Of a DNA stretch of 64,000 nucleotides, positions 13,228 to 60,735 are shown one piece after another. Position numbers and translations under genes: made by a program. The DNA is from Phycisphaerae bacterium (lineage in GTDB: Bacteria > Planctomycetota > Phycisphaerae > Tepidisphaerales > Tepidisphaeraceae), in assembly GCA_025924315.1 (NCBI GenBank), contig JAICIO010000004.1:62001-126000 (forward strand), in the 5' to 3' direction. Under the pieces are notes generated by a model. The model was not told the DNA's origin, did no database searches, and saw only the letters and a list, made by a program, of their open reading frames with translations. How positions within the stretch are numbered: the first letter of the stretch is position 1; each line of letters opens with the position of its first letter.

Positions 13228-13303
13228 AACCACAGATGAACACAGATGAACACGGATGAAAACTCAGATTCAGATCTGTGTTCATCCGTGTTCATCTGTG
13301 GTT
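13228..13303. repeat. palindrome, type C (ACAGATGAACAC words)
   Basis: The left arm is three degenerate copies of a CACAGATGAA word, the right arm its complement (TTCATCCGTGTTCATCTG). Length 76 bp. It fills the junction between the DUF1501 and DUF1549 genes. Translated on the minus strand it yields the nonsense word MNTDEHR, so an antisense ORF at 12387-13295 is an artefact. Confidence 0.8.
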
Positions 13304-21218: not shown

Positions 21219-21305
21219 GCGCAAAGACTACAGAGTTTGCAAAGAGCGCAAAGAATGAAACAGAGCTTGTCTTTGTTCTCTTTGTGAGCTTTGCAGTCTT
21301 TGCGC
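21219..21305. repeat. palindrome, type C (GCAAAGA words)
   Basis: The left arm is degenerate GCGCAAAGA/TTTGCAAAGAG words, the right arm their complement ending CTTTGCGC. It is 87 bp long, starts 19 bp after the deiodinase-like gene and precedes the aldo/keto reductase gene. Confidence 0.7.
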
Positions 21306-30458: not shown

Positions 30459-30515
30459 TGGTGATTGGTGATTGGTGCGTGACGGATCGAGTCAGTCACC
30501 AATCAACAATCACCA
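30459..30515. repeat. palindrome, type C (GGTGATT words)
   Basis: The left arm is TGGTGATTGGTGATTGGTG plus CGTGAC, the right arm its near-complement, giving a 57-bp stem of 7-nt words. It is gene-less and lies between the starts of the exported-protein gene (80 bp away) and the end of the MazG-like gene (4 bp away). Confidence 0.75.
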
Positions 30516-30888: not shown

Positions 30889-33546
30889 TCAGTTCTGCGG
30901 TCGACGATTCTCTTCGATCCACTTCTCGAGCACCGGGATCACGCGCTCTTCGCGCTCGAGCCCCGCCTGGTTCCCCGCCTTTTCATACAACTCCGCCAGC
31001 AGCTTGTGAGCCTGAAGGTCGTACGGATCGACATACACCGCCTGCATCCCATATTTCTCCGCGTCATCAAACTTACCTTCGTCGCGATAGATTCGGGCAA
31101 TGCGCTTCGCGTACTGGTTGTCCTTCAGGTCCACCTTGTGCAGGCGGATCAGATGCTCGATCGCCTTGTCCGGCTGGTTCACCTGCTTCGTGAGATACAG
31201 TCCCGCCAGTCGCTGATGCGGCAGCTGATCGACCGGTCGCAGCGTCACGATCTGCTCGAAAAGCTTCACCGCCTCCGGGTATTTCTTCTCCTTGATCATC
31301 AGCTCGCCTTCATCGCGCAGCTTGGCGTACTTCTTGCTCGTTTCCGGGTCGTAACCCCACGTGCTCACCTGCTTTTCCGTCCACGCGAAGAAGTCGCTCG
31401 TGAACTGCGTGATGCTCACCTTCAGCACGCGCTGAAATGCCTCCGCCTCGCTCGCGCCGTGCTTGAACTGATCGAGCATCTGAAGGATCGCTTCGTGGCC
31501 GTACTTTTCTTCGATGTAGGTGCAGATCCAGAACGATTGCGCGTACGCCATCTGCCGATCGTTTGGTTTTTGCGGGCGGACAAATCCCCACGTGAGATTG
31601 TCCATCGTGAAGAGTTCGTGCTTCTTCACCGCGTTATACAGCATCGGCACCCATTCCCAGCGCAGCGGCGAATGCTCCTGATAGACCGCGAGGCCTTCGG
31701 TCATCCAATGCGGGATACGATTATCCGTGGCCGCGAGCGTGACGGTGTGCGTGAATTCGTGCCGCAGCACCTGCGACCAGTTGAACGTCCCCATCGTCGC
31801 GGTTCCACGGCGTGGCGAAACAAGGGCGATCACCCGGCCGGTGCTCGCGCCGACGGTGCCAATCCATGGCGAGCCGGTCGTGCGAACGCTGAACGCATCG
31901 TGCGTCGGGAAGACTTCGATGTACGTCTTGCGCTTCGGCTCGCATTTGTATTCGGGGCACACTTGCGGATAGACGGTCTCGAGATAATCGCTGAAGTATT
32001 CCGGGATGATCGGATCGAGCTTCGCGTCGTACATCACGATGAAATGAGCCGTTTCCTTGCGGGCGAATCCGCCGAGCTCGTCGAGCAGCCGCAGATAATT
32101 CGTCGTCGCGAGATTGAACGGGTCGAGCGCGTGGGCGGTGTTGAGCGTGACGCGCGCTTCGTCCTCATCGCCACTTTGCGTGTAGAGCAACCCGAGCCCA
32201 TTTCGCGTCGCGGTCCACCATGGCGCGCGCTGGATCGCGATTTTGTACATTTCCGCCGAGCGCGGGTATTGCCGCATCGCGCCGAGCTGCTCGGCCATCT
32301 CGAAATACGCCGTCGCGTTGTCCGGATCGATCGAATCGACCTGCTTGAGCACCGCCGCGGCCTTGTCGTCTTCCAATCGCAACGCATGCGTCGCCGCGAG
32401 CAGGCCGAGCGCCTCAATATTCTGCGGCTGTTGCTGCAGCACGCGCTCGATCGGCTTGAACGCATCGACCGGCCGCCGCTGGTGCAGGTAATTCCGCGCT
32501 TCGAGAATGTCCGCCCTTGCCGATCCGCGATCGATGTGGCGAATCGCGTCGATCGCCTTGTCTCCCGTGTCGAAATCAAACGACTGAATCGCAATGCGAC
32601 CCATCAGGTCGATTGCATCGAGATCGCCTTCGTTCAATCGCAGCGCGGCCTGCAGTTCCTTCGTCGCTTCGGTCGTGTTGTCGTGCGAGAGAAAATACTC
32701 CGCCGCCGCGACGTGGGCAGGGCCGTACGCGCGATCGATCTCGTCGTACGCTTTGACGAAAATATTCAGAATCGCCTGGTGAAGATTCTCGTTCTTCTCA
32801 TACGCGCCGTTCAATGTCGCCCAGCGATCGATCGCCCGGCCGATCAGCGTCACATTATCCGCGCTCTGCAGCGCCGGATCCGGCCGGTCCTGCTTCAGCT
32901 TCGCGAGGTAATCGCGCTTGTCGTCGAGGAACCAGTTGTAGAAATTCTTCGCGTCGTTCAGCTTCCCCAACTGCTCCGAAACCCAACCCGCATAATAGTG
33001 ACCGGGAATCGAATTCGGATTCGCCTTGAGATGCTCGTTGAGCACCGTCATCGCGGCGTCGTTCTTTCCCATTTCCGAAAGAATCCGCGCGCGGAGCACT
33101 TCGGCAGACGATGCTTTGGGAATCGTGTCCACGGAAAGCAGATCAATCGCAGGCTGCTTCTTCCCGATCGCATTCATCGCGGTGGCTTTCAGGATGGCGA
33201 TCTCGGTCGCGTCGCCTTTGACGTGGGCGAGATTCTGCAGAGCGAGCTTGTATCGGCCGGTCTGCACCTGCAGCCGAGCTTTGTCGAGATCGTTGAAGTA
33301 CTTCGGATACTGAAGTGGCGGCAGATCCTCCGGCAACAACGGCTCGATCCACTTCTGCGGAATCGATTCGCGAGACAGGTCCTGCGCGCGCGTCGACGTC
33401 GACGCGATCAGACTCATCAGTAGGATAAAAACGATAAGCCTGTCATCCTGAGCGAAGCGAAGGATCTCGGGTTCGGAACACGTGTTGCCACATCGAGATC
33501 CTTCGCTTCGCTCAGGATGACGGCGCGCGGGGTACATCGGTTTCAT
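30889..33546 (-). CDS. TPR-repeat protein with HExxH (MA-like) metallopeptidase domain
   Basis: Up to 885 residues. Multiple TPR motifs fill about residues 60-490 (for example YYAGWVSEQLGKLNDAKNFY, LGLLYTQSGDEDEARVTLNTA), then a gluzincin-like domain with HEFTH at about 596-600 and WMTEGLAVYQE as the third ligand, then more TPRs. It should be exported: a hydrophobic LIVFILLMSLIASTSTRAQ is a signal core. The N-terminus is odd: between the ATG at 33546 and that core lie about 30 residues (HPERSEGSR...) encoded by palindrome B2. The next in-frame Met (33417) cuts off most of the signal core, so the start is uncertain and the insertion may impair export. A TATAAT sits only about 5 nt before ATG 33546. 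Confidence 0.8.
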   Translation of the reverse strand: MKPMYPARRHPERSEGSRCGNTCSEPEILRFAQDDRLIVFILLMSLIASTSTRAQDLSRESIPQKWIEPLLPEDLPPLQYPKYFNDLDKARLQVQTGRYKLALQNLAHVKGDATEIAILKATAMNAIGKKQPAIDLLSVDTIPKASSAEVLRARILSEMGKNDAAMTVLNEHLKANPNSIPGHYYAGWVSEQLGKLNDAKNFYNWFLDDKRDYLAKLKQDRPDPALQSADNVTLIGRAIDRWATLNGAYEKNENLHQAILNIFVKAYDEIDRAYGPAHVAAAEYFLSHDNTTEATKELQAALRLNEGDLDAIDLMGRIAIQSFDFDTGDKAIDAIRHIDRGSARADILEARNYLHQRRPVDAFKPIERVLQQQPQNIEALGLLAATHALRLEDDKAAAVLKQVDSIDPDNATAYFEMAEQLGAMRQYPRSAEMYKIAIQRAPWWTATRNGLGLLYTQSGDEDEARVTLNTAHALDPFNLATTNYLRLLDELGGFARKETAHFIVMYDAKLDPIIPEYFSDYLETVYPQVCPEYKCEPKRKTYIEVFPTHDAFSVRTTGSPWIGTVGASTGRVIALVSPRRGTATMGTFNWSQVLRHEFTHTVTLAATDNRIPHWMTEGLAVYQEHSPLRWEWVPMLYNAVKKHELFTMDNLTWGFVRPQKPNDRQMAYAQSFWICTYIEEKYGHEAILQMLDQFKHGASEAEAFQRVLKVSITQFTSDFFAWTEKQVSTWGYDPETSKKYAKLRDEGELMIKEKKYPEAVKLFEQIVTLRPVDQLPHQRLAGLYLTKQVNQPDKAIEHLIRLHKVDLKDNQYAKRIARIYRDEGKFDDAEKYGMQAVYVDPYDLQAHKLLAELYEKAGNQAGLEREERVIPVLEKWIEENRRPQN
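33441..33521. repeat. palindromic element B2, inside a coding 5' end
   Basis: An 81-bp inverted repeat with arms TGTCATCCTGAGCGAAGCGA and complement. It lies within the open frame of the TPR peptidase, between its first ATG and its signal-peptide core, without breaking the frame. Confidence 0.85.
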
Positions 33547-37480: not shown

Positions 37481-37561
37481 TGTCATCCTGAGCGAAGCGA
37501 AGGATCTCGATACCGCAACGCGTCTTCGATATCGAGATCCTTCGCTTCGCTCAGGATGACA
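37481..37561. repeat. palindromic element B3
   Basis: An 81-bp inverted repeat with near-perfect arms (TGTCATCCTGAGCGAAGCGA and complement) and a central ATACCGCAACGCGTCTTCGATAT-like spacer region with its own small dyad. It lies between the DUF4149-like gene's 5' side and the RTX gene's 3' end. Confidence 0.85.
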
Positions 37562-47677: not shown

Positions 47678-47839
47678 ACGCAGATAGACGCAGATGAACG
47701 CAGATCAAGAAAGAATTCTTGACCACGAATGAACACGAATCTTCACGAATGAATGCAAATCTGCTTTCAATTCGATTCGTGTCCATTCGTGTTCATTCGT
47801 GGTCAACCTCTTTTAGTTTTTAATCTGCGTTGATCTGCG
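47678..47839. repeat. nested palindromes, type C (CGCAGAT words outside, CACGAATG words inside)
   Basis: The outer arms (CGCAGATGAACGCAGATCAA and complement) are split by an independent inner inverted repeat at 47719-47806 with CCACGAATGAACACGAAT words. The inner one looks inserted into the centre of the outer one. It lies between the esterase start and the GNAT stop. Confidence 0.75.
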
Positions 47840-53303: not shown

Positions 53304-53552
53304 ATGAATCAAGATGTCCAGACTTTGTCCATCGGAGAACGTCTGGTCCGTGCCGCGCACTTGGCGGTCGCGGCGCATCTGGGTCAATCGATGGCGAACC
53401 CGAATGCCAGCGGGCGGCGCATCGTGATCGGCGGAGCCGGTCCTGCGTGGTTCACGGATGAACCGACGTCGTCCGCGGTCGATCGTCCTGAGCAGATCGA
53501 AAGATTGGCCTCAGATCGATCGACCCTTTCCGCCGAGGGAGGGGCCGAATGA
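53304..53552 (+). CDS. small protein opening the flagellar operon, 82 aa
   Basis: ATG 53304 follows GGGAG and starts MNQDVQTLSIGERLVRAAHL. The rest is AVAAHLGQSMANPNASGRR, then a glycine/alanine part and an acidic C-terminus. The stop overlaps the flgF start by 4 bp (ATGA), so it is translationally coupled. I do not recognise the family. It could be a flagellar accessory or leader protein. A candidate sigma-54 site lies just upstream, and the operon appears to begin here. Confidence 0.55.
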   Translation: MNQDVQTLSIGERLVRAAHLAVAAHLGQSMANPNASGRRIVIGGAGPAWFTDEPTSSAVDRPEQIERLASDRSTLSAEGGAE

Positions 53553-54313
53553 TTTACGGCCTATACCTGTCGGCCACGGGCGTCCTGACGAACTCGTATC
53601 GTCAGGACGTCATTAGCAATAACCTGGCCAACGCCGAGACGGTTGGCTACAAGAAAAACGTCGCGCTGTTTCAGCAGCGTCTCACCGAGGCCCAAGCGGA
53701 GCGCAACCCGAACCGCTCCAGTGATCTCCTCGAGAACATCGGCGGCGGATTGCTCTGCGCGCCGACGGAGATGGACACGACGCAGGGCGAGCTGGAGAAC
53801 ACGGGCAACAAGCTTGACGTCGCCATCACCGGGGACGGCTATTTCGGCGTGCAGGATGCCAACGGCGGGATCAAGCTCACGCGCAACGGGTCGTTCCAGC
53901 TCGATCGCCAGGGTCGTCTGATCCTATCAAATACAGGCAATCTGGTTCTCGACCAGGACCGCAAGCCGATCACGCTCGATCCGACGCAACGCAGTCTGAT
54001 CGAGATTGCCTCCGACGGCCAGATCACCGTCGCCGACAAGCAGGTCGCCAAGCTCGGCGTCTTTAGTGTTCCCGATCCGAAGCAGCTCACCAAGCAAGGC
54101 GAAACGCTGCTGAACTATTCCGATCCGAACAAGATCACTCCGTCAAAAGCCACAGTCGTCGGGGGCGCCTTAGAGCGCGCCAACGTAGACCCCGCCACCG
54201 AGCTCACCGTGCTGATGGACGCCCAGCGCCAGCTCGAAGCGAATGCGAACATGATTCGCTATCAGGATTCGACGTTGAATCGGCTGGTGAATGACGTCGG
54301 TAAAGTCGCTTAA
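53549..54313 (+). CDS. flgF: flagellar hook-basal body protein, FlgF type
   Basis: 254-residue rod protein. N-terminal GLYLSATGVLTNSYRQDVISNNLANAETVGYK is the FlgF/G/E signature with the conserved ANxxT/N motif; GFGxx-like DGYFGVQDANGG begins the central domain; the C-terminal VLMDAQRQLEANANMIRYQDS carries the helix that forms the rod coiled coil. I call it flgF rather than flgG because a clearer FlgG follows at 54837. It acts in the proximal rod, exported by the flagellar type III system, so no signal peptide is expected. It is coupled to the small gene upstream; a four-helix-bundle cassette starts right after it. Confidence 0.85.
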   Translation: MIYGLYLSATGVLTNSYRQDVISNNLANAETVGYKKNVALFQQRLTEAQAERNPNRSSDLLENIGGGLLCAPTEMDTTQGELENTGNKLDVAITGDGYFGVQDANGGIKLTRNGSFQLDRQGRLILSNTGNLVLDQDRKPITLDPTQRSLIEIASDGQITVADKQVAKLGVFSVPDPKQLTKQGETLLNYSDPNKITPSKATVVGGALERANVDPATELTVLMDAQRQLEANANMIRYQDSTLNRLVNDVGKVA

Positions 54314-54318
54314 GCGAA

Positions 54319-54772
54319 AGAAGCCAGAAGCCAGTAGCCAGAAGCCAGTAGGAAGAAGGGGACTCGTGATGGCGCGCACCTTTCAAGAATTGAACGTGTA
54401 TCAGAAGGCACATTCGTGGGTGCTCGACATCTATCGCGCTAGCAGACAGTTCCCGCGCGAAGAGATGTTCGGGTTGACATCGCAGTTGCGACGCGCAGCG
54501 GTCTCCGTTCCCGCAAACATTGCGGAGGGGTTCGTCAAGCGCGGGCGTGCCGACAAGATTCGGTTTTACAACATCGCTCAAGGATCGCTCGAAGAATGTC
54601 GGTACTATCTTATTCTGGCGCGGGATCTGCAGTTCGCGCAAACGGATGAGGAGCTTGGGGCGATCGATGAAGTGAGCCGCATGCTCGAGGCGTATATCAG
54701 CGCAATTGCGGCGTCGCGACGCAATCCCCTCCGCCTTCTCTTCTGGCTTCTGGCTCCTGGCTTCTGGCTTCT
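54319..54772. mobile_element. four-helix-bundle cassette C1 with AGAAGCCAG-word inverted arms
   Basis: Left arm 54319-54360 (AGAAGCCAGAAGCCAG words) and right arm 54727-54772 are near-complementary over about 45 nt. They enclose a single gene for a four-helix-bundle protein. The right arm is also read as the last part of that gene. It is inserted between flgF and flgG. Confidence 0.65.
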
Positions 54773-54803
54773 CTCGTCAAGTCCCCGACTTCTCTCAAGA
54801 TGA
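54369..54803 (+). CDS. four-helix-bundle protein (23S rRNA-intervening-sequence/S23 type), cassette C1
   Basis: 144 residues from MARTFQELNVYQKAHSWVLD. Family marks are LNVYQKA, FGLTSQLRRAAVSVPANIAEG, RFYNIAQGSLEECRYYLILA and DEVSRMLEAYISAIAASRR, giving a four-helix bundle like proteins encoded in 23S rRNA intervening sequences and like the Avd accessory proteins of diversity-generating retroelements. The tail after ASRR (NPLRLLFWLLAPGFWLLSSS) is encoded by the right palindromic arm and is not part of the fold. It lies between flgF and flgG in the operon direction and has no known link to flagella. It is probably part of a mobile cassette. Confidence 0.85.
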   Translation: MARTFQELNVYQKAHSWVLDIYRASRQFPREEMFGLTSQLRRAAVSVPANIAEGFVKRGRADKIRFYNIAQGSLEECRYYLILARDLQFAQTDEELGAIDEVSRMLEAYISAIAASRRNPLRLLFWLLAPGFWLLSSSPRLLSR

Positions 54804-54836
54804 CGCTCTCGCTCGTCCGATAACACTCAAGCAACC

Positions 54837-55652
54837 ATGGCCATCACCGCACTTAATTCCGCTGCGACTGGACTTCGGGCGCTGAGCACGCGCATCGACG
54901 TGGTGGCGAACAACCTCGCGAACGCGGAAACGACTGCGTTCAAGCGAAGCCGCGTGAACTTCGAAGACCTGATGTATCAGGCGGTGAAGCAGCCGGGTTC
55001 GCAGAATGCCGCGGGCGACATCTCGCCGTCGGGCATCTACGTCGGCCTCGGTGTGCGGATCAGCAACACGCAGCTTGATACGGAGCAGGGCTCGCTCGAA
55101 AACACCGGGCGCCCGCTCGACATCAGCATTTCCGGCAATGGTTTTTACAAGATCAAGATTCTCGACACGATCGGCAGCGGCGAAGGCTATACGCGCAACG
55201 GCAACTTCTTCATCAACAACAAAGGCGAGCTCGTGCTCGGCATGGGCGATGGTTACAAGCTGATCCCGCCGATCACCTTTCCCGCGGGCGTGAACGAGTC
55301 GACCGTCGGCGTCGCCGAAGACGGGACCGTTACGTACATCAAACCCGGCAGCAACACGAAGAGCGTCGCGGGCCAACTGCAGATCACACAATTCCGAAAT
55401 CCGCAGGGGCTATCGCTGCTCGGCGGAAGCATCTACACCGAAACCGATGCATCCGGTCCGCCGCTCGAAAGCAAGCCGGGCGAAAACGGCGCGGGCAGCG
55501 TGCTGCAAAACTTCCTGGAAGGAAGCAACGTCGATCCGGTGAAAGAGCTCGTCACGCTGATCAAAACGCAGCGCGCGTTCGAGCTGAACAGCCAGTCGAT
55601 CCAGACCGCGGATCAGGCTCTGCAGACGATCGGCAATTTGAGAAGAGGGTAG
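54837..55652 (+). CDS. flgG: flagellar basal-body rod protein FlgG
   Basis: 271-residue distal rod protein. N-terminal SAATGLRALSTRIDVVANNLANAETTAFKRSRVNFEDLMYQ is diagnostic for FlgG; GLGVRISNTQLDTEQGSLENTGRPLDISISGNGFY is the start of the central domain and NFLEGSNVDPVKELVTLIKTQRAFELNSQSIQTAD the C-terminal rod helix. It is exported by the flagellar type III pathway to the periplasmic rod that the L and P rings surround. It ends 58 bp before flgA; a short hairpin lies in that gap. Confidence 0.92.
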   Translation: MAITALNSAATGLRALSTRIDVVANNLANAETTAFKRSRVNFEDLMYQAVKQPGSQNAAGDISPSGIYVGLGVRISNTQLDTEQGSLENTGRPLDISISGNGFYKIKILDTIGSGEGYTRNGNFFINNKGELVLGMGDGYKLIPPITFPAGVNESTVGVAEDGTVTYIKPGSNTKSVAGQLQITQFRNPQGLSLLGGSIYTETDASGPPLESKPGENGAGSVLQNFLEGSNVDPVKELVTLIKTQRAFELNSQSIQTADQALQTIGNLRRG

Positions 55653-55659
55653 TGATGTA

Positions 55660-55679
55660 GGCGCGACGCCTGCGTCGCC
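55660..55679. repeat. short hairpin (GGCGCGACGCC..GCGTCGCC), half-type element
   Basis: GACGC/GCGTC plus GGC/GCC make an imperfect hairpin in the 58-bp gap between flgG and flgA. It resembles single-hairpin halves of type D elements. Confidence 0.35.
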
Positions 55680-55710
55680 CTGATCTGTCGATGCGACATG
55701 GAGGTCGCTC

Positions 55711-57078
55711 ATGTACAACCGATGGCCGTTAGGAAAACGCAAAACCGTTCAGCTGATGGTGATCCTCACCATCCTCGCCTGGGCCACGCAGACACTCTTT
55801 CATCAGTGGGGTTTCGGCGCTGAACTTCCGCTCGATCAAGCAGCGACAACTCAACCGTCCGATGTTACGCCGACCGACGAGCCGCAGGAAAAGTTCGTCC
55901 CCGCCGCCGCGCAATCGATCGGCTCGACGCTCGAACTCCGCAGCGAAGCGACGATCACCGGCGGGGAAGTGAAGCTCAAGCAGGTGTGCCGATGGGCAGA
56001 TCGCGACAAGGCGACGTTCGCGCCGATCGCGGATCTGGTGCTCGTTCGCATCGGCGAAGGAAAGCCGTTCCGCTCGATCAGTGTCGATGAAATCAAGAGC
56101 ACTTTGCACGACGCGGGCGTGAATCTCGCGACGATTAACTTCGTCGGCACGACCACTTGCACGATCGCCCGCGGGGACGTGCAGTACGATGAGCGAACCG
56201 CGCTGCAGCAGTGGATCGACGCGCGGCAGGGAAAAGCCGGCGCGACGCAGCCGAGCCAGACGATGGTCGTCGTGAATTCTTCAACGAAAGCGGCCGTGCC
56301 CACGCAGGCTGCGGCGATCATTCCGGTTTCGAATACGACGCCGGCGCCTGCGCATCTGGAGCCTCTGCCGACCCCCGAGCCGGCGACGCAAAAGACGACG
56401 CGCACGCTTCGCGATGCGCTGATTGCGGACGCTTCGGCAAGGCTCAGTCTTCCGGCGGACACGCTTCAAATCGATTTCAACGCGCAGGACGAAAAGGTCC
56501 TCAACCTCGCCGAGCCGACCTTCAAGTTTCAGGTCGATGCCGTCCGCGTCCGCGATCTCGGCGACGTGCAGTGGAAGGTCACGCTGCTGAGCGACCTCTC
56601 GAGCAGCAAGCCGATGTATATCGCCGCTTTCGCTCGCGCATGGCAGAACCAGATCGTGATCGCCAAACCGCTCGCCTATAAGTCGATCATTCAGGAATCC
56701 GACGTCATCGAGCGTCGCACCCTCGCCGATCATCTCTCAGACGATCCGCTCGTGACCAAGTCACAGACGGTCGGCCAGCAGGCGGCGCGCGATCTCAAGC
56801 CGGGCATGATCATGACCGCGCGGATGGTCGATCCGGTGCCGCTCGTGAAGAGCGGGCAATACGTGACCGTCACGCTGAACCAGGGCTCGGTGCAGATCAA
56901 GACGGTTGCGAAAGCGCTCGACGGCGGATCGTATGGCCAGACGATCCGCGTGAAGAATGAATCGACGAGGGACGTGTTCGACGTGACGCTCACCGGCCCA
57001 CAGACCGCCACGATGAACACGCCGAGCACGACGAATGACCAGGAACCCGCCGCCAAAGTCGCCACGGCGCGGGATTGA
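55711..57078 (+). CDS. flgA: flagella basal body P-ring formation protein FlgA
   Basis: 455 residues, about twice the size of enterobacterial FlgA. An N-terminal membrane segment (QLMVILTILAWATQTLFHQW) leads to a region rich in Thr/Gln/Pro (QAATTQPSDV, TPEPATQKTTRT). The conserved C-terminal SAF-like domain contains VIAKPLAYKSIIQESDVIERRTL, QTVGQQAARDLKPGMIMTARMVDPVPLVKSGQYVTV and GQTIRVKNESTRDVFDVTLTGP. It is a periplasmic chaperone for P-ring (FlgI) assembly. Two earlier partial repeats of the domain may account for the length. Element A7 follows 16 bp after the stop. Confidence 0.87.
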   Translation: MYNRWPLGKRKTVQLMVILTILAWATQTLFHQWGFGAELPLDQAATTQPSDVTPTDEPQEKFVPAAAQSIGSTLELRSEATITGGEVKLKQVCRWADRDKATFAPIADLVLVRIGEGKPFRSISVDEIKSTLHDAGVNLATINFVGTTTCTIARGDVQYDERTALQQWIDARQGKAGATQPSQTMVVVNSSTKAAVPTQAAAIIPVSNTTPAPAHLEPLPTPEPATQKTTRTLRDALIADASARLSLPADTLQIDFNAQDEKVLNLAEPTFKFQVDAVRVRDLGDVQWKVTLLSDLSSSKPMYIAAFARAWQNQIVIAKPLAYKSIIQESDVIERRTLADHLSDDPLVTKSQTVGQQAARDLKPGMIMTARMVDPVPLVKSGQYVTVTLNQGSVQIKTVAKALDGGSYGQTIRVKNESTRDVFDVTLTGPQTATMNTPSTTNDQEPAAKVATARD

Positions 57079-57093
57079 GGATGAGTTTGTCTT

Positions 57094-57168
57094 GTAGGGT
57101 CCGCTTCAGCGGACCGGTTATTCAGGCGCTCGAAAGACAAATAACCGGTCCGCTGAAGCGGACCCTAC
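57094..57168. repeat. palindromic element A7 (CCGC subtype)
   Basis: A 75-bp double hairpin of family A between flgA (16 bp before) and flgH (33 bp after), inside the operon. Confidence 0.9.
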
Positions 57169-57201
57169 CAAAGCGATAAAAGCATCTCTTCGAGGGCATG
57201 C

Positions 57202-58017
57202 ATGAAGTTCCCCCGCAAAGCGTTTTCGTTTCTTTCGTTCACCGCGGCTTCGTCGGCGATTGTCGCGACGGCGCAGGTCGCGCCAACGACGTCTCGTCCG
57301 AATGGCGGCCCGGTCGGCCAGACCGCACAGGACGCGGCGCAGTCGCAGTCAACGAATGCTGATGCGAACTACCTTCAACCGCGGCAAAGCACTTCGCTGC
57401 TGCGCGTCGCGATGGCGGCGCAGGTTCCGCAGCAGCAGACGACGCAATTGGGACACCAGAACAGTCTCGCGCAGATCAGCTTCCTCGCGGTTCCCGAGCC
57501 GCAGCCGAAGGTCGTGAAAAAGCACGACATCGTCACCATCATCATCCGCGAAGAGAGCGAGTATTCGAGCGAAGGCACGACCGATCTGAAGAAACAGGCG
57601 GACCTGAATGCCGCCATTACGGAGTTCGTCCGCATCAACCTGGCGAACAAGGCGCTGCAGAGCAACATCGGCAGCACCGCGCCGACGATCGCGATGAACG
57701 GCTCGCATAACTTCAAAGGCGAAGCAACGGTCGACCGCACGGACAGCTACACGCAGCGAATCGGTGCCGAAGTACTCGACGTGAAGCCGAACGGCACGCT
57801 CGTGCTGCAGGCGATGAAGACGATTCAGACGGATGAAGAAGAGCAGTCGGTCATCCTCAGTGGCGTCTGCCGGGCGGAAGACATCACCGCCGACGATACG
57901 GTGCTGAGCACGCAGTTGCACGACCTGACCGTTCGCAAGACGCACAAAGGCGCCGTGCGCGACACGACGAAGCGCGGCTGGGTCCCGAGATTATTGGACG
58001 TGTTGAACCCGTTTTGA
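57202..58017 (+). CDS. flgH: flagellar L-ring protein FlgH
   Basis: 271-residue L-ring protein of the outer membrane. The family core is HDIVTIIIREESEYSSEGTTD, INLANKALQSNIGS, NGSHNFKGEATVDRTDSYTQR, EVLDVKPNGTLVLQAMKTI and QSVILSGVCRAEDITADDTV, all as in FlgH. The N-terminus MKFPRKAFSFLSFTAASSA is a signal-like sequence but there is no lipobox Cys; the only Cys lies in SGVC. Most FlgH proteins are lipoproteins, so the anchoring is unusual. It precedes flgI, its partner in the outer-membrane bushing. A type C palindrome separates the two. Confidence 0.88.
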   Translation: MKFPRKAFSFLSFTAASSAIVATAQVAPTTSRPNGGPVGQTAQDAAQSQSTNADANYLQPRQSTSLLRVAMAAQVPQQQTTQLGHQNSLAQISFLAVPEPQPKVVKKHDIVTIIIREESEYSSEGTTDLKKQADLNAAITEFVRINLANKALQSNIGSTAPTIAMNGSHNFKGEATVDRTDSYTQRIGAEVLDVKPNGTLVLQAMKTIQTDEEEQSVILSGVCRAEDITADDTVLSTQLHDLTVRKTHKGAVRDTTKRGWVPRLLDVLNPF

Positions 58018-58031
58018 CGATGAGTGGAGGA

Positions 58032-58105
58032 CAGTTGTCAGTTGATGGTTGGCAGTTGGCAGTAAGAGCCGCCACTGACAACTGCAAACTGACAACTGCC
58101 AACTA
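58032..58105. repeat. palindrome, type C (AGTTGTCAGTTG words)
   Basis: The left arm has degenerate AGTTG(T/G)CAGTTG words, the right arm their complement; the length is 74 bp with no gene inside. It fills the flgH-flgI junction. Confidence 0.75.
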
Positions 58106-58123
58106 TTCGTAGGGCGGAGCCCG

Positions 58124-59191
58124 ATGCGAAAGATTTGTTTCATCCTGATCGCGATTGTCTGCTCGACTCGCGCCGCGTTTGCGGTGAAGGTCGCGGACAT
58201 CACGCGCATCAGCGGGCAGCGGACCAATGTGCTCACGGGTCTCGGCCTGGTCGTCGGCCTCAAAGGCACCGGCGACGGCGGAGATTTCTCGCCGGCGATC
58301 AAGCCGTTGTCGGCGATGCTGAAGAAGTTCTCCGACTCCGCCACCGTCACCGAACTTGCCAATGTCGCCAACGTCGCGCTCGTGAGCGTGACCGCGACCG
58401 TTCCTAAGGACGGCGTGCGCGACGGCGACAAGCTGGACGCGTACATCACAAGCCTCGGCGCCGCCACCAGCCTCAAGGGCGGGCGACTCTTCATCACGCC
58501 GCTGCTCGGTCCGACCGGTCTTCCCGCGGCCGAGGGCCTGCCGTTTGCGATGGTTGAAGGGCCGGTTGTGATTGAAGATCCAAGCACGCCGACGGTCGGC
58601 AAAGTCGCCAGCGGCGCGGTCATGGAAATGGACCTGCCCGCGCACTACATCGACAACGGCCGGTTCACGCTGGTGATCGAAGACCCCAGCGCCTCGTGGA
58701 CCAACGCGAGCACCATCGCGAAGATCATCAACGACTCGGAAGGCAACAACGGCGAAACGCTTGCCGTCGCGGCCGATCCGAAGAACGTCATCGTCAATAT
58801 TCCCGTCAACGAGCGAGAGCATCCCGACAGCTTCATCAGCCGCGTGCAGCGACTGCCTGTGCCGCTGTTGCCGAGCGAAGCGCGCGTCGTGATCAACGAC
58901 CGATCCGGCACGATCGTGATGACCGGCGACGTCGAAATCAGCCCGGTGGTGATCAGCCACAAAGGGCTGACGATCAGCACGATCGATCCAAAACCGGTGC
59001 CCACCCCACGGACCCCGGTCGTTAATACAAAAGATGTCGTCGCACTGGATACGACCAACGAGGGCGGCGCCAAGCTGCAAGACCTGGTGAACGCGCTCGA
59101 TCAGCTCAAAGTGCCGTCGGAGGACCGCATCGCCATCGTGAAAGAGCTGTACAAGACCGGAAAGCTCCACGCGAAGTTGATCGTGGAGTGA
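58124..59191 (+). CDS. flgI: flagellar P-ring protein FlgI
   Basis: 355-residue periplasmic P-ring subunit with a signal peptide (ICFILIAIVCSTRAAFA). The N-terminal VKVADITRISGQRTNVLTGLGLVVGLKGTGDGG is the FlgI hallmark. Further conserved parts are KNVAxVxVTA-like NVALVSVTATVPK, GGRLFITPLLGPTG, RSGTIVMTGDVEISPVVISHKGLTI and LQDLVNALDQLKVPSEDRIAIV near the end. It assembles around the rod with FlgA help. A type D element begins 22 bp after the stop. Confidence 0.93.
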   Translation: MRKICFILIAIVCSTRAAFAVKVADITRISGQRTNVLTGLGLVVGLKGTGDGGDFSPAIKPLSAMLKKFSDSATVTELANVANVALVSVTATVPKDGVRDGDKLDAYITSLGAATSLKGGRLFITPLLGPTGLPAAEGLPFAMVEGPVVIEDPSTPTVGKVASGAVMEMDLPAHYIDNGRFTLVIEDPSASWTNASTIAKIINDSEGNNGETLAVAADPKNVIVNIPVNEREHPDSFISRVQRLPVPLLPSEARVVINDRSGTIVMTGDVEISPVVISHKGLTISTIDPKPVPTPRTPVVNTKDVVALDTTNEGGAKLQDLVNALDQLKVPSEDRIAIVKELYKTGKLHAKLIVE

Positions 59192-59213
59192 GGATAAGGC
59201 TGAGATGACTCTT

Positions 59214-59331
59214 GGTGGCATCCCGGCGCGCCGGGACCTGTGACGGGACAAGAATCCTCGACCCGATCCATCGAAACGAAATCGACCGCGGAATACCGCG
59301 TTCGATCACAGACAAGAATGTCTGTGCCACC
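59214..59331. repeat. palindrome, type D (GGTGGCA outer arms), inverted relative to 44060
   Basis: Outer GGTGGCA/TGCCACC, a left CCCGGCGCGCCGGGACC dyad and a right ATCACAGACAAGAATGTCTG hairpin. The order is reversed relative to the copy at 44060-44166. It lies in the flgI-flgJ junction. Confidence 0.75.
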
Positions 59332-59377
59332 GTCGCGCATGAGGCGCTTCAGTGGGATACGAAAGCGTCGGAGACGC

Positions 59378-59815
59378 ATGCAACCCGCAGTTCTTCAAAC
59401 CTCGCAGGGATTCATCCCGCTTCGCTCGCCGAGCATGTCGCACGGCGGAATGCTCAGCGCGCACGACAAGCTCGTGAAGCACACGCAAACCTGGGTCGCG
59501 CAGAGCTTCTTCGGCACACTGCTGAAGCAGATGCGCAACGACCCATTCCGATCCGAACTGATGGACGGCGGCCGGGGAGGCCAGGCGTTTGGCGAACTGT
59601 ACGACCAGCACCTGGCCGAGCGCATGAGCCGCGGGGTCGGGCACAAGCTCGTCGATTCGATCGTGCGGAAGATCGAGGCGAAGAACGCATACGCAAAGCA
59701 GAAGACGGGACTCGGGACTCGGGATTCGGGACTCGGGTCGAACGCGCCCGCGACGAATCCCGGATCCCGGAACCCGAATCCCGGAAGCCGGAGGCAAAAT
59801 GCGTCAGCTCGCTGA
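59378..59815 (+). CDS. flgJ: FlgJ-like rod-binding protein with palindrome-encoded tail
   Basis: 145 residues from MQPAVLQTSQGFIPLRS (GGAG 7 nt upstream; the longer frame from 59240 runs through the preceding palindrome). The rod-binding domain spans about residues 25-110: TWVAQSFFGTLLKQMRNDPF, GGRGGQAFGELYDQHLAERMS and VDSIVRKIEAKNAYAKQ. No muramidase domain, as in many non-proteobacterial FlgJ proteins. After TGLGTRDSGLGS the last residues come from an inverted repeat (59706-59784). The end overlaps flgN by 17 bp. Confidence 0.82.
   Translation: MQPAVLQTSQGFIPLRSPSMSHGGMLSAHDKLVKHTQTWVAQSFFGTLLKQMRNDPFRSELMDGGRGGQAFGELYDQHLAERMSRGVGHKLVDSIVRKIEAKNAYAKQKTGLGTRDSGLGSNAPATNPGSRNPNPGSRRQNASAR
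59706..59784. repeat. palindrome, type C (CGGGACTCGGGATT words) inside flgJ 3' end
   Basis: Left arm CGGGACTCGGGACTCGGG words, right arm CCCGGATCCCGGAACCCG words, length 79 bp. It is read in frame as the Gly/Arg/Asn-rich tail of the FlgJ-like protein and is followed directly by flgN. Confidence 0.75.
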
Positions 59816-60287
59816 CATTGAGCTCATCCTCCAGCAACTCGTCGCTGAGCATCACAAGCTGCTCAAGCATGTCGAGATGCAGCAGGAGGCGATGAAGAAG
59901 TTCTCGCTCGACAAGATGGACGACGCGACGAACCTGCAGGAAGCGACGCGCCTGCGTATCGCCACGCTCGAGAACCGCCGACGCGCCATCGCGATGCAGA
60001 TCGCCAAAGCCATGCGTCTCAACGGCGATCTAACGATCAAGAAACTCGCGGAGATGTTCCCGCAGCGCGCTCCTGTCCTGCTCCAGCATCGCGAAGACCT
60101 GCGCAACATCATCGAGAAGATTCAGACGCGAACGCACGTCGCCGGGCGCCTCGCGGGCGCGGTCCTCGGTCATCTCAATACAGTCGTCAGGCTTGTCAGC
60201 GGCGCCGTCGAGCGCGCCGGCGTCTACAACAAGAATGGCGTGCCGCAAGTGTCGAAGCGCATCGGCGTCATGGAGGCGGTGGGATAG
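59799..60287 (+). CDS. flgN: FlgN-like flagellar export chaperone
   Basis: 162-residue all-helical protein starting MRQLADIELILQQLVAEHHK. A long amphipathic helix with heptad-like spacing (LLKHVEMQQEAMKKF, ATRLRIATLENRRRAIAMQIAKAM) is the FlgN pattern, and it stands directly before flgK, whose product FlgN normally chaperones together with FlgL. Cytoplasmic. It overlaps the 3' end of flgJ by 17 bp. Assignment is from fold and context; sequence identity in FlgN is always low. A four-helix-bundle cassette begins right after its stop. Confidence 0.75.
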   Translation: MRQLADIELILQQLVAEHHKLLKHVEMQQEAMKKFSLDKMDDATNLQEATRLRIATLENRRRAIAMQIAKAMRLNGDLTIKKLAEMFPQRAPVLLQHREDLRNIIEKIQTRTHVAGRLAGAVLGHLNTVVRLVSGAVERAGVYNKNGVPQVSKRIGVMEAVG

Positions 60288-60291
60288 CGGG

Positions 60292-60735
60292 ATTGTTCAT
60301 TAGGTCATTTATTCATTTGTTCATTGCAGACATGAGTGACGCAGCGCGCAAAACGATCGAGATGAAGAAGCGAACCAAGCAGTTCGCACTGCGGGTGATC
60401 CGCCTGGTGCGCGAGCTGCCGAAGGGTGATGAGGCGCGAATCATCGGTCAGCAGCTATTACGCAGCGGCACCTCGGTCGGGGCGAACTACCGCGCGCTGT
60501 GCCGCGCACGTTCAGACCGTGAGTTTGTTTCAAAGGCCGGTGTGGTCGTTGAGGAAGCGGACGAATCAGCGTTTTGGATGGAGCTGATCGTCGAGGCGGA
60601 GTTGATGTCCTCAAAGCGTGTCTCGCTCCTGCTACAGGAGTGCAATGAGATTCTTGCGATCATTGCTGCGGCTTACAACACCGCGCGACGCCCTCTGAAA
60701 TGAACAAATGAAACAATCAACAATGAACAAATAAA
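60292..60735. mobile_element. four-helix-bundle cassette C2 with TTTGTTCATT-word inverted arms
   Basis: Left arm 60292-60328 (ATTCATTTGTTCATTG words) and right arm 60699-60735 (CAATGAACAAATAAAC words) are near-complementary and enclose one four-helix-bundle gene. The arm sequence shares nothing with cassette C1, but the layout is the same. It lies between flgN and flgK. Confidence 0.65.
60332..60703 (+). CDS. four-helix-bundle protein (23S rRNA-intervening-sequence/S23 type), cassette C2
   Basis: 123 residues from MSDAARKTIEMKKRTKQFAL; the upstream part of the frame (FIRSFIHLFIAD) is arm-encoded. Helices FALRVIRLVRELPK, GQQLLRSGTSVGANYRALCRA, SDREFVSKAGVVVEEADESAFWME and LLLQECNEILAIIAAAYN give the four-helix-bundle family pattern, in particular QLLRSGTSVGANYR. 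It belongs to a different branch from the cassette C1 protein; the two share only the general pattern. The right arm begins at its last codons (PLK stop). It is unrelated to flagellar function by family. Confidence 0.85.
   Translation: MSDAARKTIEMKKRTKQFALRVIRLVRELPKGDEARIIGQQLLRSGTSVGANYRALCRARSDREFVSKAGVVVEEADESAFWMELIVEAELMSSKRVSLLLQECNEILAIIAAAYNTARRPLK

Follow-up and report, generated by a model that had tools for sequence, protein, structure and literature searches.

Here we report that two short gene cassettes in a stretch of 64,000 nt from a Phycisphaerae genome (the window, analysed at its full length) are probably members of a family of minute mobile elements, in which the S23 four-helix-bundle protein is a putative specificity factor. 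Each cassette holds one TIGR02436/PF05635 gene with inverted arms of degenerate 7-nt words on both sides (Table 1), and profile and arm scores confirm this anatomy, which had been proposed in a sequence-only reading of the window. The two genes scored 114.5 and 82.3 bits with TIGR02436 (cut-off 24) and 118.9 and 54.8 bits with PF05635 (cut-off 33.8), and with all values above the curated cut-offs both belong to the family. The arms scored 29.5 and 21.5, whereas the highest scores among 1000 dinucleotide shuffles were 14 and 13, and the arms of cassette 1 are 92% complementary to each other. In folding predictions, both cassettes close into a stem-loop (z -6.3 and -3.7). Searches of the two genes against Pfam and NCBIfam returned the S23 profiles and weak bAvd/Avd matches, and no nuclease or transposase domain. 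A known RNA family was ruled out by an Rfam scan, which gave only a tRNA in the window.

Table 1. Cassettes, neighbouring genes and gene-less hairpins, numbered from the first nucleotide of the window.
Feature	Position	Strand	Description
Gene-less hairpin	13228..13303		10-nt word ACACAGATGA, GxxExxY-type; z -9.2
Gene-less hairpin	21219..21305		~9-nt word GCGCAAAGA, GxxExxY-type
Gene-less hairpin	30459..30515		7-nt word TGGTGAT, S23-type; z -5.8
Gene-less compound hairpin	47690..47838		10-nt words, GxxExxY-type
flgF, upstream of cassette 1	53549..54313	+	
Cassette 1, 5' arm	54315..54351	+	four AGAAGCC/AGTAGCC words and tail
Cassette 1, S23 four-helix-bundle gene 1	54369..54803	+	TIGR02436, PF05635; reading frame passes through 3' arm
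Cassette 1, 3' arm	54740..54776	+	inverted copy of 5' arm
flgG, downstream of cassette 1	54837..55652	+	
Gene-less hairpin, flgH-flgI spacer	58033..58104		7-nt word CAGTTGN, S23 AGTTG clade type
Gene-less hairpin, flgJ-flgN spacer	59706..59783		7-nt word GGGACTC/GGGATTC, S23-type
flgN, upstream of cassette 2	59799..60287	+	
Cassette 2, 5' arm	about 60292..60330	+	TTGTTCATT-type words
Cassette 2, S23 four-helix-bundle gene 2	60332..60703	+	TIGR02436, PF05635
Cassette 2, 3' arm	about 60694..60735	+	AATGAACAA-type words

All six gene-less palindromes of the sequence-only reading were recovered, and eight shuffles of the whole window gave none. A single system for all six had to be given up, since they fall into two word classes: the hairpins at 30459, 58033 and 59706 have 7-nt words resembling S23 arms, and those at 13228, 21219 and 47690 have 9-10-nt words resembling the arms of GxxExxY nuclease genes, which are a parallel family with words of that length. 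Wordless hairpins with no relation to either class are present in the window as well: GTAGGG...CGGTTATT, which is REPIN-like, and GTCATCCTGAGCGAAGCGAAGGATCTCG.

In the family to which the window belongs, 26 genomes were examined; inverted word arms were present on 54 of their 74 S23 genes and on none of 279 control ORFs. One clade of S23 genes (L055, L058, L059, L060 and L063) is armless, which counts against the mobile-family reading. Most AGAAGCC elements of the window's genome have exactly four words per arm, whether the gene is present or absent, and a few arms have expanded arrays of 9-12 words. The S23 clades distinguished by word include AGAAGCC, GCGACGAA and AGTTG. That the arms of the two window cassettes are unrelated in sequence is true but misleading, because each cassette carries the word of its own S23 clade. 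Words follow the phylogeny of the S23 proteins (Mantel rho -0.22; the most extreme of 2000 permutations was -0.14, and none reached the observed value), and the mean arm similarity between genera falls from 16.6 to about 5 with growing protein distance. The arms are mostly 80-97% identical, while the third codon positions of the S23 genes have almost reached saturation, at 33-51% identity. In a cross-phylum scan with one S23 protein as query, which thus covers one S23 clade, 63 of 80 relatives, drawn from about 20 phyla, had kept the same AGRAGTC-like word; this count is based on an arm score of at least 14 plus periodicity, because all loci of the set share one word and the null with mismatched flanks is therefore inflated. 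The coupling between protein and word need not reflect recognition throughout; part of it could have arisen because gene and arms are inherited together.

Gene-less hairpins of three word classes are abundant mainly where the genome carries the S23 gene of that word. GCGACGRA is the top word in the two genomes that have the matching S23, G000 and G025; at least 80 AGTTG words were counted in all four cognate genomes vs 2 of 22 others, and at least 10 AGWAGYC words in five of six cognate genomes vs 2 of 20 others. The Fisher p values for the three word classes (0.003, 0.001 and 0.002) refer to thresholds picked after the counts were seen, and the genome-wide counts were derived from patterns and sampled stretches. 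Three words, AGTTG in G000, AGWAGYC in G020 and GATTTTTG in G009, are abundant without a cognate S23 gene in their own assembly, and the mobile-family reading therefore needs loss of the gene or gaps in incomplete genomes. The idea that gene-less copies are deletion derivatives had to be abandoned, since an unfiltered hmmsearch found no S23 remnants in 20 gene-less loci, and their loops are mutually unrelated.

The alternative that they are non-autonomous forms, and the wider claim of a mobile system, are supported by empty sites, by a polymorphism between sister species and by insertions in a DnaE2 linker. Empty sites, for which a search in relatives had been suggested, were found at flgF-flgG, at flgN-flgK and in the DnaE2 linker. 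The flgF-flgG spacer of the relatives examined (3-391 nt) contains no S23 gene and, in some, gene-less word hairpins. The flgN stop codon and the flgK ATG are 3-6 nt apart in several other genera, and at this site the sister species G009 and G010 form a clean filled/empty pair, a MITE-like insertion polymorphism; no target-site duplication is visible at this single clean site. G009 has several hairpins of one word; in about 380 kb of G010, no word hairpin at all passes an equal filter. One and the same DnaE2 linker hosts both S23 cassettes and gene-less hairpins, always in frame: it is filled by S23 in four genera (congeners of two are empty), holds other hairpins in others and is empty in yet other genera. 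Against mobility stands that S23 elements revealed neither a catalytic domain nor an excision product nor a duplicated target.

The full form of the element consists of a W-arm, the S23 gene and an inverted W-arm, each arm comprising about 4-5 tandem, clade-specific words of 7-8 nt that point inward, and the short form consists of the two arms only, joined by a loop that ranges from a few nt to some tens. We infer that the S23 protein recognises the W hairpin in its folded state, be it DNA or RNA, and acts as a specificity factor through which both forms are copied or inserted. The short forms would then be dependants mobilised in trans, by analogy with the presumed dependence of REPINs on RAYTs. 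Cutting and joining would be performed by host enzymes, because S23 has no nuclease or transposase domain. In operons, the insert may be tolerated by virtue of the hairpin in the transcript, which would be folded out or processed by RNase III, the enzyme that cuts the stem of the Coxiella 23S intervening sequence (PMC4990558). The S23 protein of X. campestris is a toroidal homopentamer (PMC4990558), and five chains are present in each of the solved structures of relatives, 2gsc and 2rld.

It is unlikely, in our judgement, that the hairpins came first, i.e., that another enzyme of the host or of an element mobilises word hairpins and that S23 and GxxExxY genes are captured cargo, later co-inherited with the arms. 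Such an origin would agree with the equal anatomy of two unrelated protein families, the larger number of gene-less than of gene-bearing copies, the words without a cognate gene in their genome, and two opposite arms in G025 that flank a native stretch of dnaE2. However, captured cargo should swap words, and each word class is tied to one protein clade over about 20 phyla; the conservation of the arms near third-position saturation and the peak of word abundance in genomes with the cognate gene likewise speak against it. Still less probable is a non-selfish module of regulation or RNA processing, in which S23 would bind the arms in the transcript so as to control its own mRNA or those of its neighbours, and the gene-less hairpins would be regulatory sites spread by selection. 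The closed folding of the cassettes and the RNase III cleavage in Coxiella are consistent with such a role, as is the orientation of S23 genes, which are in sense with each of their two neighbours in 49 of 61 cases (p 2e-6 for each). Against it stands the insertion pattern of the gene-less copies, which occur at unrelated sites and in frame in DnaE2 and differ between sister species.

The proposal that arms are made anew at each event, for instance by RNA-templated synthesis with a reverse transcriptase (RT) and an Avd-like partner, is very improbable. It was prompted by the differing arms of the window cassettes, and the first S23 protein indeed matches bAvd (E 6e-4; 20.7 bits vs a curated cut-off of 40) and Avd (E 4e-6; 27.1 bits vs 80), scores that lie below the cut-offs. 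S23 thus shares with DGR Avd/bAvd proteins the four-helix bundle and this weak match, but differs in that neither an RT nor a template/variable repeat adjoins the window genes; the single RVT_1 match of the genome lies on another contig (C220). The claim is contradicted by the inheritance of the word with the protein clade and its conservation beyond saturation of third codon positions. An RNA-templated origin fares no better: RVT_1 is absent from several genomes that are full of word hairpins (G003) or have had a recent burst (G009), and an RT in the genome is therefore not needed, even though a striking excess of S23 genes has the sense orientation of the neighbouring genes. Slippage producing simple tandem repeats that flank small genes by chance might account for the few expanded arrays and is the least probable explanation of all, given the complete absence of word arms from the control genes and the constant, inverted and inward-pointing layout of four words.

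It is conceivable, though short of an even chance, that S23 proteins provide the specificity component in a phylum-spanning and hitherto unrecognised class of mobile elements that moves without a known transposase, nuclease or RT of its own, each clade reading its own word of 7-8 nt as a repeated code in the hairpin; 23S intervening sequences and perhaps cyanobacterial heptamers would be its visible remnants, and GxxExxY nucleases a parallel system with words of 9-10 nt. S23 proteins would then offer a code for word recognition that evolved in nature, and many hairpins between genes and in-frame insertions in bacterial genomes would go back to a very common element that annotation has missed. 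We know of no carrier to date for the widespread heptamer repeats. The function and origin of S23 genes and 23S intervening sequences are so far not known (PMC4990558). One testable explanation would serve both for these and for the heptamer repeats. Full-text searches of open-access journal papers found no paper that links S23 genes to word hairpins.

Among known systems, the palindromic elements of Rickettsia share with S23 elements the insertion of hairpins in frame within genes; to our knowledge, they have neither an encoded protein nor a word structure. The heptanucleotide repeats of cyanobacteria, including STRR, resemble the arms in that degenerate 7-nt words are paired in a stem and two classes, TDNGATT (Class I) and NNTGAGT (Class II) in P6b of the tRNA-Leu intron, replace each other; in the part of the source drawn on here, a protein partner is not proposed for them (PMC4476775). 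The intergenic TAACTGA heptamer of Beggiatoaceae, also common to cyanobacteria and Bacteroidetes, forms almost only direct repeats; its author suggested a repeat-binding protein as mobile element, and a link to S23 is not reported there (PMC4679880). The 23S intervening sequences share the protein family and an S23 ORF within inverted ends, e.g., in Coxiella burnetii, where the ends are ~28 bp long and heptameric GACAGAT repeats lie beside the ORF; the window elements differ by their location in protein operons (flgF/flgG and flgN/flgK), and neither coupling of word and protein nor gene-less partners are part of that description (PMC4990558). Intervening sequences look like one special habitat of the S23 element family and would be its best-known branch. 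The RAYT/REPIN system is similar in that a family of genes is matched by palindromic repeats, a genome can harbour several distinct families, doublets without a gene are scattered over intergenic sites, and protein and repeat co-evolve (PMC3116915); as expected from it, gene-less repeats of three word classes are abundant in genomes that have the matching gene, with the exceptions of G000, G020 and G009. In contrast, S23 is not a Y1/HUH tyrosine transposase, and its arms are tandem words of 7-8 nt instead of GTAG-tagged REP hairpins; the word arms of the window contain no GTAG-tagged palindromes, and the GTAGGG hairpins form a separate set. Moreover, the S23 gene lies inside the arms, and its elements also occur in frame within a coding region. 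The best reading is thus a mobile family that would be organised like RAYTs and REPINs, with a pentameric, non-HUH protein.

The genome that holds the window (G000; 6.57 Mb in 262 contigs; window at G000:C4:62001-126000) contains five genes of the S23 four-helix-bundle family (TIGR02436/PF05635), all five flanked by inverted arms of degenerate words, a different one each (AGAAGCC, GCGACGAA, GAGGATA, TTGTTCA, TTGATTA). The two in the window are bracketed by 7-nt words; their arms score 29.5 and 21.5, where shuffled sequence reached at most 14 and 13. Scanning the window for hairpins recovered each of the six gene-less palindromes that the sequence-only reading had listed and yielded no word hairpins in eight dinucleotide shuffles; the four gene-less window hairpins that were folded as RNA gave z-scores of -3.7 to -9.2. 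The reading frame of the first window S23 continues through the 3' arm, and thus the words encode its C-terminus. GTCCGATAA is kept in the flgF-flgG spacers of many relatives and resembles a sigma-28 -10 element.

Coordinates of features (window positions unless a contig is named)
Feature	Position	Remark
S23 cassette 1	54315-54776	between flgF and flgG
S23 cassette 2	60292-60735	between flgN and flgK
S23 frame through 3' arm of cassette 1	54740-54803	
GTCCGATAA	54815-54823	ahead of flgG, directly downstream of cassette 1
Gene-less hairpins matching GxxExxY words	13228-13303, 21219-21305, 47690-47838	
Near-identical GTAGGGTSCGCTTCAGCGSACCGGTTATT hairpins	7471, 16490, 18329, 22353, 23135, 34759, 57094	REPIN-like, GTAG tag
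Hairpins with arm GTCATCCTGAGCGAAGCGAAGGATCTCG	33442-33521, 37481-37561	further repeat family; related copy nested in the AGAAGCC element L336
Opposite GCGACGAA arms in dnaE2 (locus L350)	718-1057 of L350 (G025:C66)	flank native 285-nt stretch, in frame

This anatomy recurs across the bacterial family to which G000 belongs: in 26 of its genomes (G000-G025), 57 of 74 S23 loci exceeded a mismatched-flank null at 1% and 54 had arms scoring at least 15 with a periodicity of at least 0.6, as did none of 279 control ORFs. Best arm periods were 7, 14 or 8, the median arm was 33 nt long (~4.75 words), and purines made up more than half of the 5' arm in 51 of 62 cases. Most AGAAGCC arms in G000 have exactly four words, whether or not they enclose a gene; one arm has grown to 9-12 words in three gene-less loci (L334, L336, L345), so word number can change on one side by slippage. 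One S23 clade from three genera (L055, L058, L059, L060, L063) has no arms and looks domesticated; L058 carries a Gly/Arg-rich tail.

Arms and protein are coupled. Related words occur within clades of the S23 tree (AG(A/T)AG(C/T)C; GCGACGAA with GGCACGAA; AGTTGNN; GAGGATA; GGGTTCAA; GAATGAC), the Mantel statistic lay well beyond all 2000 permutations, and mean arm similarity in cross-genus pairs was 16.6 at protein distances below 0.6 and ~5 for distant pairs. Of the 80 proteins closest to one particular S23, a set covering a single S23 clade (59-70% identity, the query's own record excepted; Cyanobacteria, Acidobacteria, Verrucomicrobia, Bacteroidota, Chloroflexota, Deinococcota and others), 63 had word arms, overwhelmingly AGGAGTC/AGAAGTC-like. 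The sequence-only reading had the arms made anew at each event; in related cassette pairs, however, arms were mostly 80-97% identical (~75% across the dialects GCGACGAA/GGCACGAA) and S23 third codon positions only 33-51%, so arms are inherited under constraint and not remade.

Gene-less partners, counted as two-word patterns in all 26 genomes, abound mainly where the cognate S23 is present (Fisher p 0.001-0.003, thresholds set post hoc). GCGACGRA occurred 24 times in G000, 23 times in G025 and at most 10 times elsewhere; the first two are the genomes that carry this S23. AGWAGYC counts in cognate-clade genomes were 101 (G000), 58 (G005), 25 (G003), 12 (G014) and 11 (G011), with G020 (63) and G023 (10) as exceptions; since most genomes are draft MAGs, an absent cognate S23 may reflect an assembly gap. 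AGTTG counts were 189, 159, 114 and 82 in the four cognate genomes, 143 in G021 (a congener of G020), 89 in G000, which has no cognate S23, and at most 22 in the remainder. Dialects also match: the prevailing form, AGAAGCC for G000 and AGAAGTC for G003, is the one found in the S23 arms of the respective genome. Gene-less copies consist of arms around unrelated loops of mostly 12-27 nt; 20 such loci held no S23 remnants, which speaks against their proposed origin as deletion derivatives.

Insertions are polymorphic, and the empty sites expected of a mobile system exist. The flgN-flgK junction holds a 70-nt hairpin in G009 and reads TAAG-CC-ATG in G010 (~82-87% nucleotide identity); 319 kb of G009 contained five word hairpins, four sharing a GATTTTTG-like word; no word hairpin passed the same filter across 382 kb of G010. 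None of the relatives compared carries S23 at flgF-flgG (spacers 3-391 nt) or flgN-flgK (down to 3-6 nt), and several have gene-less hairpins of other words there. The DnaE2 linker, usually 39-66 nt, is a hotspot that takes different hairpins: it holds S23 cassettes in four genera (G000, G025, G002, G005; L002, L017, L022, L036; 504-645 nt), while G012 has a GATGAGC-type hairpin there and G015 a CACAGAGAT hairpin. The congeners of G002 and G005 (G003 and G006) have an empty linker. Because every insert is a multiple of three in length and lacks stops, S23 is nested, in a different frame, within an uninterrupted dnaE2 frame. The arms of L350 may each have inserted singly, or they may have been assembled around host DNA.

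A second family, GxxExxY (TIGR04256, PDDEXK_3 nucleases; L162-L191), has inverted arms of 9-10-nt words at 27 of 29 genes in the 26 genomes (score at least 17). Here, too, arm words vary with the protein (Mantel rho 0.42; no permutation exceeded 0.27). The dnaE2 hairpin arms of G015 nearly equal those of its GxxExxY cassette L184, including the tail CTTTCTGGT.

S23 genes lie preferentially sense to the upstream neighbour in the family (46/62, p 2e-4) and to each neighbour in the cross-phylum set (49/61, p 2e-6), neighbouring ORFs being called mechanically. The S23 protein of X. campestris is a toroidal homopentamer (PMC4990558), and structures 2gsc and 2rld have five chains each; such a pentamer may bind the word hairpin and guide copying of the element, the copying itself being performed by host enzymes. 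The RVT_1 profile had no match in G002, G003, G009, G012 and G024, so a reverse transcriptase in the genome seems not to be needed, as far as these incomplete assemblies can tell.

The S23 word family would work like RAYT/REPIN (PMC3116915), but lacks its defining HUH transposase and GTAG-tagged REP. The heptamer stems of the Nostoc tRNA-Leu intron (PMC4476775) and the TAACTGA repeats (PMC4679880) are possibly related. The 23S rRNA intervening sequences share protein and layout with S23 cassettes, and that of Coxiella has heptameric repeats beside its ORF and a stem cut by RNase III (PMC4990558); they are therefore probably a specialised branch of the S23 word family.
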